From: Luteolibacter rhizosphaerae
GTDB lineage: Bacteria > Verrucomicrobiota > Verrucomicrobiia > Verrucomicrobiales > Akkermansiaceae
DNA length: 64,000 bases
NCBI RefSeq assembly: GCF_025950095.1
Contig: NZ_JAPDDR010000018.1
Location: 26,265-90,264, forward strand
Reading direction: 5' to 3'
Positions within the stretch are counted from its first letter, which is position 1. The number at the start of each line of letters is the position of its first letter. The notes under the pieces were generated by a model. It was not told where the DNA came from and ran no database searches. It saw only the letters and a program-made list of their open reading frames with translations. Shown piece after piece: positions 22,289-33,335 of the stretch. The position numbers and the translations under genes were made by a program.

Positions 22289-22344
22289 AGGTCACGCCTG
22301 TGGACGAGGTATTGACGAACTCACCCGGAAAGAGCGGTTGGGTT

Positions 22345-22606
22345 CCAATACAACTCCCGCCGGGGGGACCTCCGTGGAGATCACACGCCCGGCGGGTGGT
22401 TGTATTGGATAGCGGGGTTTCTCAGGCCCCTATTGGTGTTCTCCCCCCAGAGAACAGCATTCTAATGGCATCCGCCGTGCCAAACGGCGAAGAGCCGGTG
22501 TAACTTACCTAGATCCAATTGATTTAATATTTTGTTGCATTATGCAACTAGCGGAAGTTTATAGTAAAGCCTGCAAAAGTTTCAGCGATTCCTGAAATTC
22601 ATTCAG
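22345..22606 (+). ncRNA. Candidate structured RNA, copy 1
   Basis: This non-coding stretch folds into a string of hairpins. A long one has outer stem CCAATACAAC (22345-22354) with GTTGTATTGG (22399-22408) and inner stem CCCGCCGGG (22356-22364) with CCCGGCGGG (22388-22396). The others are a GGGG/CCCC hairpin (22414-22430), GTTCTC/GAGAAC with a CCCCCA loop (22438-22455), TGGCA/TGCCA with a CCGCC-containing loop (22466-22482), and TTTCAG/CTGAAA (22580-22597). A second copy at 23305 keeps the same order and spacing with compensatory changes. The strand is inferred from the C-rich loops only. Confidence 0.65.
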
Positions 22607-22665
22607 CGCATTGGTGCAAGAGGGTTTCGATCCATGGTCTCCACCGCCAGTGCTGGCGGAGGGGC

Positions 22666-23307
22666 CTACAGGATCGCCGTGACGACACTGTGAGCCAGCA
22701 GGTGAAAGCCCAGCAGTAGAAGGCAAACAAGAAGCAGCTTCTTCATTTGCAGTCGCGTATGGGACGGGCTGCTGGACTTTGCGCTGCCATACATCAGAGC
22801 CAGCACTAGGATCTGAATTCCGCTGTAACCCGCCAGTACCGGTAGAACCTCTTGACTGCCAGTGTGGCGGCTGAGGATCCGGCCGGCGAGGAATCCCGTT
22901 GCGAGCATTACCCCCGAAGAAATAGTGATCTCAGGTAGATAGATCCGAAACATGTCGATCACCGAATTCACCGACCAAGGATGCCGATGCGTGGCATACA
23001 GCTCAGGCTGCAGGGGCACGAAGCGAGGTAGGGGCTTGCGGCTGGGAGAGGATTCCGGGCGATGATCGAAGTCCTCCGCTGAATCGCCCCAATCACAAGC
23101 AAGCGGAACGGCATCCTGGCCGGCTTGCAGCGGCATCGGGCTTAGATCCCGGGTGCCTTGGCGGGCTCTGCGGACCGGGGCTTGTTCCACCGGGAGCAGG
23201 CGTGACGAATCGGCCACGGCTTGGATCGGCAGCGGGAAGGAGGGCAGAACAGGGAGGCTTCGCATCGGGCAGGGAGGTGGCTTGGCCCTGCGGGAAGAAA
23301 CTCTCAT
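22666..23307 (-). CDS. Small membrane protein between the two RNA-like repeats
   Basis: The frame codes for up to 213 residues. The first about 110 are Pro/Arg-rich and may be partly untranslated. The C-terminal half has three clear hydrophobic segments (ITISSGVMLATGFLAGRIL, VLPVLAGYSGIQILVLALMY and KLLLVCLLLLGFHLLAHSVV), supporting a real membrane protein. No family recognised. Its start lies against repeat copy 2 and its stop is 60 bases from the end of copy 1, so the gene is framed by direct repeats. Confidence 0.5.
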   Translation of the reverse strand: MRVSSRRAKPPPCPMRSLPVLPSFPLPIQAVADSSRLLPVEQAPVRRARQGTRDLSPMPLQAGQDAVPLACDWGDSAEDFDHRPESSPSRKPLPRFVPLQPELYATHRHPWSVNSVIDMFRIYLPEITISSGVMLATGFLAGRILSRHTGSQEVLPVLAGYSGIQILVLALMYGSAKSSSPSHTRLQMKKLLLVCLLLLGFHLLAHSVVTAIL

Positions 23308-23571
23308 CCAACCACGCCACTCCGCCGGGGGCGATCTCCCTCACGGGGAATTCACCTGCCCGGCGGATTGGTTGAAAGTGGATGGCGGAGCGTTGTGGCT
23401 CCTGTTCTCCCCCCAGAGAACGGAAGTCACTCGGCATCCGCCATGCCAACTATACCGACACTACGCCAATTACTTATGTTCAAGGAAATGTTGCCAGGCT
23501 GCCGGCTTGTCGGACAGGTCGGGGCGCTTTTGACCATGCAAAATATTCAGGAAATGCTGAATATCATTCAG
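23305..23571 (+). ncRNA. Candidate structured RNA, copy 2
   Basis: This is the partner of the element at 22345. Stems: CATCC (23305-23309) with GGATG (23380-23384), AACCA (23310-23314) with TGGTT (23369-23373), TCCGCCGGG (23321-23329) with CCCGGCGGA (23359-23367), GGAGC/GCTCC (23387-23402), GTTCTC/GAGAAC with the identical CCCCCA loop (23404-23421), GGCAT/ATGCC with a CCGCC loop (23433-23447) and ATTCAG/CTGAAT (23545-23562). From the fourth hairpin to the shared TGCAAAA box is 90 bases, the same as in copy 1. A C-G pair of copy 1 is U-A here, and the outer stems differ entirely but still pair. Confidence 0.65.
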
Positions 23572-26771: not shown

Positions 26772-29700
26772 ATGAATCTTACAATGTCGGGGGATCACAA
26801 GGAGCAGAAACAGGGAAGGTGGGTAGAGGCTTTCTGGGCGGGGCAGGCGGAGGCGCTCGAACTCATTCTCAGTGGTCTTCCCCTTTCCCGGGTGCTCGAG
26901 CGGATCGCCTGCCGCATTGAGGAAGCATCCGAAGATGGTGCCCTCTGCTCGGTCTTCCTCGCGAACCCGGAAGGAACCTTGCTGCGGCTCGCCGCTGCGC
27001 CTTCCCTGCCTGGCGACTTCCATGATGCCGCTGCTGAAATCCCGGTGGCAGAAGGCGTGGGCTCCTGTGGAACCGCGGCCGCTCTCAAGCGCTTGGTGGC
27101 CATCGACGACATCGTCAGCCATCCCGCCTGGGCCTCGGCGCGTGACTTCGTTCTCCTCCATGGTCTGAGGGCCTGTTGGTCGGTGCCGGTATTCGGCAGG
27201 GATGGCACGCTGCTCGGCACCATGGGGATCTACTACCGCGAGCATCGCAAGCCGGACGCGGACGAGCGGGTGCGGGTGGAGTCCGCTGCCAAGCTGGTAG
27301 CCTTGGCCATCGAGCGTGGCAGGGTGGCCGAGAAGGCGCGCGCTGACGAAACACTCCTCCGTATCGCCGGTCAGAATGCCCGCTTGGGAGGCTGGACAGT
27401 CGATCTCCCGCAGGGGCCGATCAATTGGTCCGCCGAGGTTTGCGCCATCCATGAGGTTCCCGCCGGTTATCGGCCGGGCTGGCGGGAGGCCTTCGACTAC
27501 TACGCGCCGGATTCCCGGCCCGTGGTCTACGAGGCCTTCATGCGCTGTGCCGAGCAGGGCACCCCTTTCGATCTGGAGCTTCCCTTGATTACTGCCCGGG
27601 AGCGGCGGGTGTGGGTCCGTGCGATCGGGGAGGCAGTGCGGGACGGGGACGACCGGATCATCCGTATTCAAGGAGCTTTCCAAGACCTTACCGACAAGCG
27701 TGAAGCGGAAGAGAAGAGCCGCCGTCTCATGGAGCGTCTCACGGCCACCTTGGAAGCGGTGACGGAGGGTTTCTGCCTTCTGACCCGCGACTGGCGCTAC
27801 AGCTACCTCAATCGCGAGGCCGAACACCTGCTACAACGCTCGCGCGATCAGCTGCTTGGCCGCGTGCTGTGGGAGGAGTTTCCGGAAGCCGTCGGAAGCA
27901 CCGTCGAGCGTGAACTGGTGCGAGCGGTCAAACAGGGCGTGGTGGTAGAGTTTGAGAATTACTACCCTCCCTTGGGCGCGTGGTTCGAGATCCGCGGGCT
28001 GCCTACCGAAGACGGTCTGGCCATCTACTTCCGGGATGTCACCGCCCTGCGCAAGTCGCGCCAGCAGGTGAAGCTCCTCGCCGAGTGTGTCTCGCGCATC
28101 ACCGATATCGTCATCATCACGGAGGCGGATCCCTTGGATGAGCCGGGCCCGCGCATCGTCTTCGTGAATGATGCCTTCACCGCGAGCACGGGCTACACCG
28201 TCCGCGAAGCGGTGGGCCGCTCGCCGCGCTTCCTTCAGGGGCCGAAGACCCAGCGGTCCGAACTCGATCGCATTCGCATCGCCATCGCCAAGGGAGAACC
28301 CGTGCGGGCCGAGCTGATCAATTATCGCAAGGACGGCAGCGAGATCTGGCTCGAGATCGACATCGTTCCCGTGAAGGAGGCCGGTGGTCGGGTCTCTTAC
28401 CTGGTAGCCGTGCAGCGCGACGTCACCGAGCGCAAGCGCGCCGAGGAAGAGAGTCGCATGAGCGAGGAGCGCTACGTGCGCCAGCGGAACTCGCTCATCA
28501 CCCTCACCGGCATCCAGCCATTGGAGATGGCGGATCCGCAGGCCGCCTTCCGCCGGATTACCGAGGCGCATGCCCGCGCCCTCGGGGTCGCGCGGGTGGG
28601 CATCTGGCTCTACGGCAGCGACCGCAGTTCCATCCGCTGCGCCGACTTGTATGAACTTGGGGAGCATCGGCACAGCTCCGGGCAGGAACTCTCGCAAAGC
28701 GGCTGCCGAGCTTACTTCGCGGCAATCGACGAGATGGACGTGATTGCTGCGGACGAGGCACGTTCCGATTCGCGGACCCGTGATTTCGCGGAGAGCTATC
28801 TGATTCCTCTCGGGATCACTTCCATGCTCGATGCCCCGATCGCCATCGGTGGCAGCATCGTGGGAGTGCTGTGTAGCGAGCACACCGGGCCGCCGCGGCG
28901 CTGGACGGGCGATGAAAAGACCTTTGCCGCCTCCGTGGCGAACTTGGTTTCGCTTGCACTCGAGGGTGGGGAACGCCGTCGTGCGGAGGACGCGGTGCAA
29001 GAGATCCGCCGCCGCTTCGAGATCGTGGCGGCTGCGACCAACGATGCCGTCTGGGACTGGGATCTGGTCAGCGATGAGATCTGGTGGAGCGATGGCTTCG
29101 AGAAGCTGTTCGGCTACCGTGGCGACGAGATCGAACCCAGTTCGGATTTCTGGGTGCGCCGGATCCATGATGACGACCGCGAGCGCGTGATGCGGGACGT
29201 CCGGGCGACCATTGCCGGGCCCGAGGATCACTGGAACAAGGAATACCGTTTCCGTCGTGCCGATGGTTCTTATGCATATGTGTTAGATCGCGGCTTCGTC
29301 ATTCGGGACGAGCGCGGCCGGGGAGTCCGGATGGTTGGCGGGATGAGCGATCTCAGCGCTCACAAGCAGGCGGAACTCGATCTCGCCCGTCTCAATCGTG
29401 CGCTCAAGATGCTCAGCGCCTGCAATGAGGCGGTAACCCGGGCGGCAAACGAGGGGGATCTGCTCACGGAGATCTGCCGCATGGCGGTGGAAACCGGCGG
29501 CTACCGCATGGCGTGGGTGGGATACGCCCGTCATGACGCCGCCCGCAGCATCGAGCCTGTGGCATGGGCAGGCGAGGAGGGGGGGTATCTCAACGAGATT
29601 CACCTGACTTGGGATGAAAATTGTCCCACGGGCCGCGGTCCAGCGGGACAGACGGTGCGCACGGGAGAAGCCGTGGTCTGCCGTGACGTGGAGGCGGAGG

Positions 29701-31895
29701 ATTCCGGCATCGCGTGGCTGGCGCAGATGAAGATGCGCGGATATCGCGGTGTCATCTGCTTGCCGTTGCGCGATGGCGAGCGCGTCTTCGGCATGATCGG
29801 GCTCTATTCGGACGAGGTGATCGACGTGGGTCAGGATGAGGTGAAGCTGTTCCAGGAACTGGCGGATGACCTTGCCTTCGGGATCGGCACCTTGCGCGGA
29901 CGGGAGGAGCGGCGGCGCGCGGAAGACGTCGTTTTGAAAGTTGCGCAGGCCGTTTCCACGGGCACCGGGTCGGAGTTCTTCGACCTGCTCACCCTGAACA
30001 TGGTTGAGGCCTTGGGCGGGCATGGCGGCTTGATCGGCCGCCTCGATCCGGACGATCTTTCCATCACCACGCTCTCCTGGGTGCTCGGCGGCAGTGTCCA
30101 AGAAGGTGTGAGCTACAGCTTGCGGGGTACTCCCTGTGAGAATGTCAGCGAGGGGAAGGTGTGCGTCTTTGATCGTGGCGTGCAGGAGCTCTTTGCGGAT
30201 GATCACCTGCTGGTGGAGTTGGGAGTCGAGGCGTATGCCGGCATTCCGCTCCTGAACCGGGACGGGACCGTGGCCGGAATCATGGTAGTCCTTTTCTCGA
30301 AGCCGCTTGAGGAGACCTCGCTGGTCCAGTCCACCCTCCAGATCTTCGCGGCGCGAGCCGCGGCGGAGCTTGACCGGCAGAAGGCGGACGAGCAGATCCG
30401 CGCGCAGGCCTCGCTCTTGGATCGCGCGCGCGATGCCATCTTCGTCCGCGGTCTCGACCAGCGGATCCAGTACTGGAACAAGAGTGCGGAACGCCTTTAC
30501 GGCTGGACGGCGGCGGAGGCGATCGGCCGTTCCGCGGAGGAATTGCTCTACCGCGAAACCGGAGCCTACCGGGAAGCTTCCGCCACCGTCTTGAACACCG
30601 GCGAATGGACCGGAGAACTCGAGCAAGTGAGCCGTGATGGCTCCCGCGTGGTGATCGAGGGCCGCTGGACCCTGATCCGCGATTCCGCGGACAAGCCCAC
30701 GAGCATCCTCACGATCAATACCGATATCACCGAGCACAAGAAGCTCGAGCAACAGTTCCTGCGTGCGCAGCGTTTGGAGAGCATCGGTACCCTTGCGGGT
30801 GGAATCGCGCACGATCTGAACAATGTCCTCGCACCGATCAGCATGTCCATCGAGCTCCTGAAAAGCGATGTACAGGGTGAGCGCGGCAGGGAGCTTCTCG
30901 CCACCTTGGAGGCCAGTGCCAAACGCGGCGCGGAGATGGTCAATCAAGTGCTCTCCTTCGCCCGGGGCATGGAAGGGCGTCGCGTTGAATTGCATGTCAG
31001 GCGCTTGGTGGAGGATGTGGAGAAGATCGTTCGCGATACATTTCCGAAGAACATATCTTTCCGCCGTCATGTTCCGCGGGATCTTCGCATCATCCAGGGC
31101 GACCCTACCCAACTCCATCAGGTGCTCCTCAATCTGTGCGTGAATGCCCGCGACGCGATGCCGGAGGGTGGTGAGATCGCGATCACCGCGGAGAACGTGT
31201 ATCTGGATGAACGCTTTGCCGCCACCGAGACCTCCGTGAAGGCGGGGCCGCACGTGCTCCTTCGCGTGGAAGATACGGGGCACGGCATTCCTGCCGCGGT
31301 GCTCGACAAGATCTTCGAGCCCTTCTTCACCACCAAGGCGGCAGGTAAAGGCACCGGTCTCGGCCTTTCCACCTCCTTGGCCATCGTGCGCAGCCACGGC
31401 GGATTCATCCGTGCCGCCAGCAACCCGGGGCAGGGGACCTGTTTTCTCATCGTCCTGCCGTCCTCCGGGTTCGCGGTGGAAGATGCCGCGGAAGCGGATG
31501 AAGCGGAGCTTCCCCGCGGTCGCGGTGAAAGGATCCTGGTGGTGGACGACGAGCCGTCCATCCGCCGCATCACCCGCCATACCTTGGAGTCCTTCGGCTA
31601 TCAGGTCACCGATGCCTGTGATGGTGCCGAAGCGCTCGAGATCTACCGGGCGCAGGGGGGCGATATCTCCGCAGTGATCATGGATATGATGATGCCGGGG
31701 ATGGACGGGACCTCGACGATCCGCGAGCTGATGAAGATGGATCCATCCGTGAAGATATTAGCTGCAAGTGGAATCAGTGAGAAAGGAAGACTGGCAAAGG
31801 AAGCCGGTGAATGCGTAAGATGTTTCGTTACCAAACCTTGTACTGCAGAAACCCTGCTCAAGGCTCTAAAGACCACTATCCACGGCCATGCTTGA
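26772..31895 (+). CDS. Multi-sensor hybrid histidine kinase (1707 residues)
   Basis: A cytoplasmic kinase with no clear membrane segment. In order: GAF (about 25-175), PAS (about 195-310), PAS (about 320-430), a LOV-like PAS (about 440-560, with GRSPRFLQGPKTQ), GAF (about 575-735), PAS (about 750-870), two GAF-like domains (about 880-1040 and 1055-1200), PAS (about 1215-1320), HisKA with GGIAHDLNNVLAPI, ATPase domain with NARDAMPEGG and GTGLGLSTSLAIV, and a C-terminal receiver with VVDDEPSIRR and VIMDMMMPGMDG. The LOV-like domain lacks the flavin-binding Cys. The sigma-54 activator follows 84 bases later and is its likely partner. Confidence 0.88.
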   Translation: MNLTMSGDHKEQKQGRWVEAFWAGQAEALELILSGLPLSRVLERIACRIEEASEDGALCSVFLANPEGTLLRLAAAPSLPGDFHDAAAEIPVAEGVGSCGTAAALKRLVAIDDIVSHPAWASARDFVLLHGLRACWSVPVFGRDGTLLGTMGIYYREHRKPDADERVRVESAAKLVALAIERGRVAEKARADETLLRIAGQNARLGGWTVDLPQGPINWSAEVCAIHEVPAGYRPGWREAFDYYAPDSRPVVYEAFMRCAEQGTPFDLELPLITARERRVWVRAIGEAVRDGDDRIIRIQGAFQDLTDKREAEEKSRRLMERLTATLEAVTEGFCLLTRDWRYSYLNREAEHLLQRSRDQLLGRVLWEEFPEAVGSTVERELVRAVKQGVVVEFENYYPPLGAWFEIRGLPTEDGLAIYFRDVTALRKSRQQVKLLAECVSRITDIVIITEADPLDEPGPRIVFVNDAFTASTGYTVREAVGRSPRFLQGPKTQRSELDRIRIAIAKGEPVRAELINYRKDGSEIWLEIDIVPVKEAGGRVSYLVAVQRDVTERKRAEEESRMSEERYVRQRNSLITLTGIQPLEMADPQAAFRRITEAHARALGVARVGIWLYGSDRSSIRCADLYELGEHRHSSGQELSQSGCRAYFAAIDEMDVIAADEARSDSRTRDFAESYLIPLGITSMLDAPIAIGGSIVGVLCSEHTGPPRRWTGDEKTFAASVANLVSLALEGGERRRAEDAVQEIRRRFEIVAAATNDAVWDWDLVSDEIWWSDGFEKLFGYRGDEIEPSSDFWVRRIHDDDRERVMRDVRATIAGPEDHWNKEYRFRRADGSYAYVLDRGFVIRDERGRGVRMVGGMSDLSAHKQAELDLARLNRALKMLSACNEAVTRAANEGDLLTEICRMAVETGGYRMAWVGYARHDAARSIEPVAWAGEEGGYLNEIHLTWDENCPTGRGPAGQTVRTGEAVVCRDVEAEDSGIAWLAQMKMRGYRGVICLPLRDGERVFGMIGLYSDEVIDVGQDEVKLFQELADDLAFGIGTLRGREERRRAEDVVLKVAQAVSTGTGSEFFDLLTLNMVEALGGHGGLIGRLDPDDLSITTLSWVLGGSVQEGVSYSLRGTPCENVSEGKVCVFDRGVQELFADDHLLVELGVEAYAGIPLLNRDGTVAGIMVVLFSKPLEETSLVQSTLQIFAARAAAELDRQKADEQIRAQASLLDRARDAIFVRGLDQRIQYWNKSAERLYGWTAAEAIGRSAEELLYRETGAYREASATVLNTGEWTGELEQVSRDGSRVVIEGRWTLIRDSADKPTSILTINTDITEHKKLEQQFLRAQRLESIGTLAGGIAHDLNNVLAPISMSIELLKSDVQGERGRELLATLEASAKRGAEMVNQVLSFARGMEGRRVELHVRRLVEDVEKIVRDTFPKNISFRRHVPRDLRIIQGDPTQLHQVLLNLCVNARDAMPEGGEIAITAENVYLDERFAATETSVKAGPHVLLRVEDTGHGIPAAVLDKIFEPFFTTKAAGKGTGLGLSTSLAIVRSHGGFIRAASNPGQGTCFLIVLPSSGFAVEDAAEADEAELPRGRGERILVVDDEPSIRRITRHTLESFGYQVTDACDGAEALEIYRAQGGDISAVIMDMMMPGMDGTSTIRELMKMDPSVKILAASGISEKGRLAKEAGECVRCFVTKPCTAETLLKALKTTIHGHA

Positions 31896-31979
31896 AACGG
31901 AATCCGTGTGCATTCCTACGCGATCAAGTGAATGTTCACGCTGGACACCCCTGTCATACTGCCGACCTTCCACTCCCTA

Positions 31980-33335
31980 ATGCCTCGCTACCCGGATGAT
32001 ACCCCGAATCTTCTCATCGTGGATGACGATGAGACGATTCAGCGACTGCTCGTCATCGCCGCCAAGGACAATGGCTGGCGGCCGCTCGCCGCGAGTTCGG
32101 GGAAAGAGGCTCTCGGGGCGGCGAGCGATGCCACCGAGGCGGTAGTGCTCGACCATGGTCTTCCAGACATGGACGGGCTCGCGACATTGATTCAGCTGCG
32201 CGAGCGTCACCCCGATCTCCCGGTGATCATGTTGACCGGGCTGAACGACGCGGAAACCGCGGTGAAGGCCCTTCGTGCGGGGGCCGCCGATTATCTTACC
32301 AAGCCTTTCGAACTGAAGCGCCTCTTCGACCTGCTGCGGGAGCTGAGGCGGGAGAAGAAGGAGGTGGCCGAGGTCCCTGCACCTGCGCCTTCTTCCAAGG
32401 TTCCGCGTGGTCCCATGCGCAGCTCCAGCCCGAAGGTTCGTGAGTTGCTCCGCCGCATGGAGAAGGCCGCGGCACTGGACAGCACGATCCTGCTGACAGG
32501 GGAAAGCGGCACCGGGAAGACCTACTTCGCCCGGGAGATCCATCGCATGAGCCGCCGCAGCGGGGAGGAATTCATCACGGTGAGTTGCCCGGCCCTGCCG
32601 CGCGAACTTCTGGAGTCGGAACTCTTCGGACACGAACGCGGCGCATTCACCGGAGCCACGGCTTCGCGGGCAGGTCGCTTCGAGGTGGCTTCAAAAGGCA
32701 CCCTCTTCCTGGACGAGATCGGGGATCTGCCGCCGGAGCTCCAGCCGAAGCTTCTCAATGTCCTTCAGGACCGGGAGTTCTTCCGCGTGGGTGGGAACAA
32801 GCTGCTCAAGACCGATACGCGGGTCATCGCGGCCACGAATGTCGATCTGCGTTCCCGCGTCCAGCTTGGCACCTTCCGGGAGGACCTTTACTACCGCCTG
32901 AACATCATCGAGCTGAACATTCCTCCGCTGCGCGAACGCAAGGAGGACATCCCCGGTCTCGCTGCCGGGATACTCGCGCGCATTGCCGCGCGTCGGAGCT
33001 CCCCGGGCTGGAAGTTGTCAAGCGAGGCCCAGAAATCCCTCATCGCCTTCGATTGGCCGGGCAATGTCCGCCAGCTTGAGAATGTTCTGGAGCGGGCCAC
33101 CGCGTTCACCGATGAGCCCACCCTTCACGAGCGGGACCTCGCGCCTCTCTTGGAGTCGCATCGCGAAGCGCCGGCCCCGGGCATGGGACGGCCGATGACG
33201 CTTCAGGAACTCGAGCGCGACGCCTTCATCCAGACCTACCACCTCAGCGGTGGTAACAAGGCGAAAACAGCGCGAGCGCTCGGGATCTCCGAGCGCTCGG
33301 TTTACAATCTTCTGGAACGTCACGGCCTCAAGTGA
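31980..33335 (+). CDS. Sigma-54-dependent response regulator (NtrC type)
   Basis: The frame is open from 31932, but the ATG at 31980 starts just before the receiver domain (LLIVDDDETIQ, phospho-acceptor in VVLDHGLPDMDG, Lys in YLTKPFELK), giving about 451 residues. The AAA+ domain has Walker A GESGTGKT, the sigma-54 contact loop GAFTGA, Walker B TLFLDEIGDLPP and an Arg-finger region. A Fis-type helix-turn-helix ends the protein (NKAKTARALGISERSVYNLL). Phosphorylation by the kinase upstream would switch on sigma-54 promoters. Confidence 0.93.
   Translation: MPRYPDDTPNLLIVDDDETIQRLLVIAAKDNGWRPLAASSGKEALGAASDATEAVVLDHGLPDMDGLATLIQLRERHPDLPVIMLTGLNDAETAVKALRAGAADYLTKPFELKRLFDLLRELRREKKEVAEVPAPAPSSKVPRGPMRSSSPKVRELLRRMEKAAALDSTILLTGESGTGKTYFAREIHRMSRRSGEEFITVSCPALPRELLESELFGHERGAFTGATASRAGRFEVASKGTLFLDEIGDLPPELQPKLLNVLQDREFFRVGGNKLLKTDTRVIAATNVDLRSRVQLGTFREDLYYRLNIIELNIPPLRERKEDIPGLAAGILARIAARRSSPGWKLSSEAQKSLIAFDWPGNVRQLENVLERATAFTDEPTLHERDLAPLLESHREAPAPGMGRPMTLQELERDAFIQTYHLSGGNKAKTARALGISERSVYNLLERHGLK

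Follow-up and report, generated by a model that had tools for sequence, protein, structure and literature searches.

Two predicted sigma-54-dependent small-RNA genes and their candidate two-component activator in Luteolibacter

Small RNAs (sRNAs) controlled by sigma-54 and an NtrC-type regulator are an already known kind of RNA, and one of them, Qrr, depends on Hfq and feeds back on luxO. For the locus described here, the closest working analogue is Pxr, with CrcZ/CrcY and Qrr next in line, and membership in none of them is claimed. In the Pxr system of Myxococcus xanthus, as presented in PMC5684412, the NtrC-like PxrR and the kinase PxrK adjoin an sRNA with a predicted sigma-54 promoter and an enhancer. 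Set against that account, the present locus likewise has an sRNA by an NtrC-like regulator and a histidine kinase, a predicted sigma-54 promoter, an upstream enhancer region and three stem-loops, but it has one to three copies, a kinase with many PAS/GAF domains and a host of another phylum, the comparison being one of descriptions and not of sequences. CrcZ and CrcY, which answer to CbrA/CbrB in the Pseudomonadaceae, are also two sRNAs with RpoN-dependent promoters under one two-component system; as described in PMC6292655, they antagonise Hfq-Crc, whereas Hfq was detected in none of 19 genomes here. The Qrr-LuxO pair of the Vibrionaceae, in the account of PMC10162802, shares the sigma-54-transcribed sRNA under an NtrC-family regulator, but the RNA is a different one and Hfq was again undetected on our side. 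The PEP-CTERM/PrsR regulon resembles the locus in its sigma-54 site with an upstream regulator motif and in its large intergenic regions, although the sites reported in PMC1569441 precede protein genes of Proteobacteria and not an RNA. It was dropped as an explanation because the promoters predicted here start an RNA, while the known motif precedes PEP-CTERM genes of Proteobacteria.

The DNA analysed was a stretch of 64,000 nucleotides from Luteolibacter rhizosphaerae (the window). It very probably holds two sigma-54-dependent sRNA genes on the minus strand. Both are likely activated together by a two-component system of their own (26772-33335), and the RNAs likely act through base-pairing of a conserved hairpin loop that is rich in G. 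The parts of this reading that were drawn from sequence are the RNA fold and strand bias, a promoter signature at a fixed distance from the first stem-loop (SL1), an enhancer-like palindrome and co-occurrence with the regulator. The features in the window are as follows.

22344..22455, minus: sRNA-A (copy 1), about 112 nt; covariance-model match of 98.7 bits (the R1 model included copy 1 in its training) and structure
22455-22456 (approximate), minus: predicted RNA 5' end of sRNA-A
22438..22455, minus: SL1 of sRNA-A, GUUCUC-UGGGGG-GAGAAC, the most conserved part (TTCTC[CT]GGGG in 26 of 28 copies)
22414..22430, minus: SL2 of sRNA-A, from the fold; 88.1% of the cells of helix 2 paired
22344..22409, minus: SL3 of sRNA-A, the long 3' stem, from inverted repeat, fold and alignment
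22466..22482, minus: predicted sigma-54 promoter of sRNA-A (TGGCACGGCGGATGCCA), previously called 'hairpin 4'; GG-N10-GC, with SL1 from +2
22572..22606, minus: predicted enhancer (upstream activating sequence) of sRNA-A, CTGAATGAATTTCAGN6CTGAAACTTTTGCA, one of two genome matches
23305..23421, minus: sRNA-B (copy 2), about 115 nt; covariance-model match of 79.8 bits over 23308-23421 (R1 training included copy 2) and structure
23404..23421, minus: SL1 of sRNA-B, identical to SL1 of sRNA-A
23432..23448, minus: predicted sigma-54 promoter of sRNA-B (TGGCATGGCGGATGCCG), with SL1 from +2
23537..23571, minus: predicted enhancer of sRNA-B, CTGAATGATATTCAGN6CTGAATATTTTGCA, the other genome match
22666..23307, minus: gene X, the ORF between the sRNAs; hydrophobic C-terminus, no Pfam match
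26772..31895, plus: hybrid histidine kinase (PAS/GAF repeats, HisKA, HATPase, receiver; Pfam), the predicted sensor
31932..33335, plus: NtrC-type response regulator (receiver, sigma-54 activator AAA+, Fis-type HTH; Pfam), the predicted activator of both sRNAs

The RNA element, its strand and its distribution

A preliminary description of this DNA had proposed two copies of a repeated, covarying element of five hairpins, and both copies were confirmed on the sequence where it had placed them. Direct repeats of 47 nt (22437-22483 and 23403-23449) are 83% identical, an outer inverted repeat (22344-22365 and 22388-22409) was found in copy 1, and both regions fold more stably than their dinucleotide shuffles (z = -4.8 and -5.4; none of 200 shuffles equally stable). 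The spacing from 'hairpin 4' to the TGCAAAA box, said to be the same in both copies, is indeed 90 bases in each. Further copies elsewhere were also recovered. When 38 genomes, from the window's own up to genus, family and order, were searched at the DNA level, the element turned up in eight, all of one genus, and six of the eight showed a pair on one strand about 0.4-1.1 kb apart; the second G012 copy was found later. Covariance models were then built from 13, 18 and 15 rows in turn and used in searches R1, R2 and R3. R1 returned 9 of 195 family genomes, R2 10 of 386 order genomes (2 of 50 genera) and R3 15 of 260 family genomes (2 of 16 genera) with 28 copies, one to three per genome; taken across the class, R3 returned 7 of 384 genomes, all of the one family, the stricter filters of such large searches losing weak matches.

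The claim of covariation was borne out against both shuffled and slid controls. In an 18-copy alignment (A3), whose pair counts are inflated because it was fitted to the structure, 91.3% of cells were paired, as against 82.1% in shuffles and 40-55% with slid partners; two-sided changes occurred at 20 of 36 pairs (shuffle mean 11.5; none of 500 shuffles as high), and the covariation score was twice the shuffled value. A structured RNA with covarying stems thus stands, but its strand is the opposite of that in the preliminary description. On the minus strand, intact copies open with the hairpin GUUCUCUGGGGGGAGAAC or a near variant; a second, short hairpin comes next and a long stem third. In that reading the stems of the 18 copies hold 43 G·U cells and 11 A·C cells (19 and 5 pair columns), numbers that would be swapped on the plus strand, and the minus-strand fold is the more stable in 17 of 18 copies, the altered G007 copy being the exception. 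T-runs past the long stem were seen on the minus strand in L083, L027, L135 and L138. At L083 (Verrucomicrobiaceae MAG C4_MAG_00019, the G187 locus, from the second genus) the long stem and TTTTTT close the first two of the three tandem copies; the third G011 copy and both G086 copies have a T-run there, and a run of at least four T at nt 85-135 is present in 11 of 28 copies, plus two shorter G086 copies. Together, the asymmetry of G·U and A·C, the stability of the minus-strand folds and the T-runs of relatives argue for a minus-strand RNA whose 3' side is the long stem.

That the RNA is instead a plus-strand molecule of five hairpins, whose C-rich loops bind Shine-Dalgarno sequences, is accordingly very hard to credit. 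Both copies do fold stably on the plus strand, as long GC-rich stems fold on either strand, and the consensus terminator scan of the window region placed all three of its sites there and none on the minus strand (1.6 expected); yet the G·U/A·C asymmetry, the direction of the predicted promoter and the T-runs of relatives all favour the minus strand, and the palindrome of 'hairpin 4' is lost in relatives that keep GG-N10-GC. The proposed binding of Shine-Dalgarno sequences falls with the plus strand on the same G·U bias, sigma-54 direction and T-runs. The C-rich loop is conserved, as had been noticed, but as the complement of a conserved G-rich loop on the minus strand, and while three of the five hairpins hold as RNA hairpins, 'hairpin 4' and the last one are palindromic DNA sites, predicted to be promoter and enhancer. 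With the minus strand preferred, the element is predicted to be a pair of sRNA genes of about 110 nt each. A transcript end at the long 3' stem, and termination there, is uncertain: SL3 looks terminator-like in several relatives, where a T-run lies behind it, but not in the window genome, where both copies lack a T-run after SL3, and the consensus scan gave one site in L083 against 1.6 expected.

No named RNA family had been recognised in the preliminary description, and Rfam agreed, with no match across the window at the gathering cut-off; relaxed searches of the region and its relatives yielded sub-threshold hits only (eukaryotic miRNAs, a snoRNA and RsaD), and no tRNA or tmRNA was detected. 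The literature search returned no sigma54 report on Luteolibacter, only unrelated small-RNA ones, and none joining Verrucomicrobi*, sigma54 and sRNA. As far as these Rfam and literature searches show, the RNA family is new, as are the pairing with this regulator and the phylum for an sRNA of this known kind.

Gene X, a divergent protein without a Pfam domain, has relatives in G009, G015, G008 and G006, so that the ORF sits between the sRNAs in five genomes; no relative was predicted in G011 or G012. Its expression may come from the sRNA-B promoter, by readthrough. It starts right behind sRNA-B on the same strand in G000, the window genome, with a relative behind copy B in four more genomes, and this arrangement would also suit a cis-regulatory leader of gene X (an attenuator or riboswitch) in copy B, with copy A a duplicated relic. 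We consider this improbable: copy A is intact in G011 and G012, which have no predicted gene X relative between the copies; copy A outscores copy B in the window genome and faces a convergent rlpA-like gene; and L083 has three consecutive copies, two of them with a T-run behind.

The three tandem copies of L083 (5159-5885, plus strand) have a spacing of 309 bp and lie upstream of a kinase-regulator operon. Dispersed copies with their own sigma-54 site were also noted, at L026:5315-5420 (minus), L027:5422-5518 (minus), G006:C5:61078-61185 and G086:C12:801535-801619. Since some copies are dispersed (G009:C1:160314, G011:C9, G006:C5 and G086:C12), a transposon end or relic, or other mobile DNA, was weighed and given almost no credence: the main copies sit in conserved synteny next to one regulator, their layout is that of an enhancer, a promoter and an RNA with covarying base-pairs, and Pfam found no transposase domain among 11 proteins.

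Predicted promoter, enhancer and regulator

Promoters of the sigma-54 type carry a -24/-12 consensus signature. The sequence TGG[CT]A-N8-GC, its GC taken as -12, stands 5' of SL1 in 25 of 28 copies (15 genomes), and SL1 starts at +1 in 3 copies, at +2 in 20 and at +3 in 2; an intact promoter is lacking in three copies, G012_B and the only ones of G007 and of G010. The resemblance of this site to a hairpin comes from the palindrome TGGCA-N7-TGCCA, which many of the sites in the window's genus also form. Both L086 (TGGCATGTCTCCTGCAA) and L083 have lost that palindrome and keep the GG-N10-GC of sigma-54, a GG/GC rule for such sites being given in PMC1569441. 'Hairpin 4' reads as a predicted sigma-54 promoter and not as an RNA stem. 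The sigma-54 site is correctly placed in all five covariance-model matches that were unused in training (G043, G381, two in G086 and the third of G006), three of which adjoin a PAS/GAF kinase or NtrC-type regulator. RpoN was found in 37 of 38 genomes. A scan for sigma-70-like sites gave one weak minus-strand site (22568-22539; 0.6 expected), between the enhancer and the promoter of sRNA-A, and none in L083 against 1.6 expected. The pattern TGGCA-N7-TGCCA-spacer-GTTCTC had 18 matches, 13 of them at sRNA copies, and its reversed control had none. The five away from sRNA copies are at G003:C47:41159, G005:C48:24031, G006:C1:58734, G009:C1:5680345 and G029:C15:30346.

Upstream, the TGCAAAA box and the last 'hairpin' form one larger palindrome, CTGMATGA..TTCAN7YTGAA....TTGCA, centred in both window copies some 107 bp upstream of -24. 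At no more than three mismatches it has exactly two matches in the 6.2-Mb genome, both at the sRNAs, and over ten genomes 16 matches at 12 places, 11 of which are sRNA loci, a rarity that marks dedication at the searched stringency and no independent discovery, because the pattern was derived from these sites. None was found at that stringency in G007, G010 or G002, and the pattern misses the enhancers of some copies, for example G011_A, G011_C and G015_A. The last 'hairpin' would then be an enhancer DNA site, as predicted from its sequence, and not an RNA stem.

The candidate activator is the neighbouring NtrC-type regulator. In six same-genus genomes (G006, G008, G009, G011, G012 and G015) it sits immediately upstream of the sRNAs and shares their strand; the orthologues there have 69-81% identity and are preceded by a large PAS/GAF hybrid kinase, N-terminally shorter in G012. 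Of 38 genomes, the 7 whose element is intact, and no others, have an orthologue (69-100% identity). Regulator and/or kinase adjoins a copy in 12 of the 15 carrier genomes and lies 9 kb off in the window genome. There, the segment 23767-33335, which spans the kinase, the regulator and a gene with an Ig-like domain, is turned round compared with the relatives, leaving about 9 kb between regulator and sRNAs. In the second genus a kinase or regulator is beside a copy in six of six genomes (G187/L083, G396/L086, G385, G086, G043 and G381); the G385 contig stops within the kinase gene, and no PAS/GAF-type kinase was seen within the 18-kb stretch in G043 and G381. The reverse case is offered by G007 and G010 (99% and 72% complete), which have no regulator orthologue (best 42%) and one altered copy each, with the promoter TGG changed to AGG and SL1 also changed, although G012_B is altered in a genome that has the regulator. 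A regulator scan of named genomes gave six loci of at least 60% identity, four of which hold the RNA (two being G015 and G012), while the remaining two, L084 and L087, lie on contigs that break off upstream of the regulator. No sRNA match was found with those of the next-closest regulators (46-53% identity; L062-L064 and L088-L095) that were searched.

An H-NOX-like gene follows these next-closest regulators in L062, L064, L089-L091 and L093, lies further downstream in L063 and was not seen in L094 and L095, in a survey of L062-L064, L089-L091 and L093-L095 (L088 is the same locus as L062). A Pfam HNOB match was confirmed for one protein alone, that of L062. This neighbour may give a clue to the regulator family's ancestral signal.

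Taken as a working scheme, the kinase would phosphorylate the NtrC-type regulator, which would bind the palindromes about 107 bp upstream of -24 and activate RNA polymerase-sigma-54; transcription would start at the first hairpin and stop at the long 3' stem.

Candidate targets and meaning

Pfam searches of 19 genomes (seven carriers, G000 among them, none from the second genus) gave no match to Hfq or CsrA, while positive controls were detected. A sponge of the CrcZ or RsmZ type is therefore unlikely, and both Hfq-dependent action and an RsmY/RsmZ-type CsrA sponge were dropped on these grounds. Base-pairing by the SL1 loop is inferred because SL1 is the one primary-sequence constant of the RNA, and the UGGGGG loop might pair, without Hfq, with C-rich stretches in the mRNAs that it targets. 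An internal contact between the SL1 loop and the SL3 C-run was discarded, the C-run being missing in G006_A and L083.

Among possible targets, the leader of the kinase mRNA holds 14-15 contiguous bases complementary to SL1 (G·U allowed) in G006, G008 and G011, three of seven genomes. The complement begins 27-28 nt upstream of the kinase start and ends 13-15 nt before the start codon, and none of 7, 8 and 8 other start regions, respectively, matches the run of the kinase leader; with all loci taken together, a run of at least 12 occurs in 6 of the 102 other start regions. The predicted local fold puts the leader C-run in a hairpin loop in G008, G011 and G015, but not in G006. The G015 leader is a weaker case, with 1 of 11 other start regions as strong by energy and 2 of 11 by run. 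Elsewhere the kinase leader is unsupported as a target: 8 of 53 other start regions are as strong in G000, 2 of 7 in G012, whose kinase start is uncertain, and in G009 the leader is the best of nine by energy but weak, its run matched by six of eight. These comparisons suggest sRNA feedback on the kinase as a good hypothesis for one lineage, not as a general rule, and in some species the leader might close a negative feedback loop. Start regions of four genes (regulator, rlpA, cupin and gene 20904) were set against the first 30 nt of the RNA, and none gave a signal that held across genomes; single cases that beat all 60 shuffles were the G015 regulator with B and G009 gene 20904 with A.

A bolder proposal, which we put forward only tentatively and think somewhat doubtful, joins these parts into a self-contained phospho-relay/RNA feedback circuit: a dedicated two-component system for which two sRNA genes hold the only enhancer sites to be detected in this genome, and sRNAs that would silence the kinase mRNA, free of Hfq, through kissing loops of G-rich and C-rich sequence. 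This would be the first such trans-acting sRNA family in Verrucomicrobiota.

Few regulatory RNAs are known in this phylum, and a 2022 survey, in the part that concerns the PVC group, gives just eight sRNA families for the entire group (PMC9029176). The locus would give Verrucomicrobiota an sRNA family for which promoter, enhancer, activator and sensor are already proposed. The altered RNA in genomes where the regulator is missing is a natural experiment that links the two, and since the host genera include named strains (Luteolibacter and Haloferula), Hfq-independent sRNA regulation would be directly testable in them.
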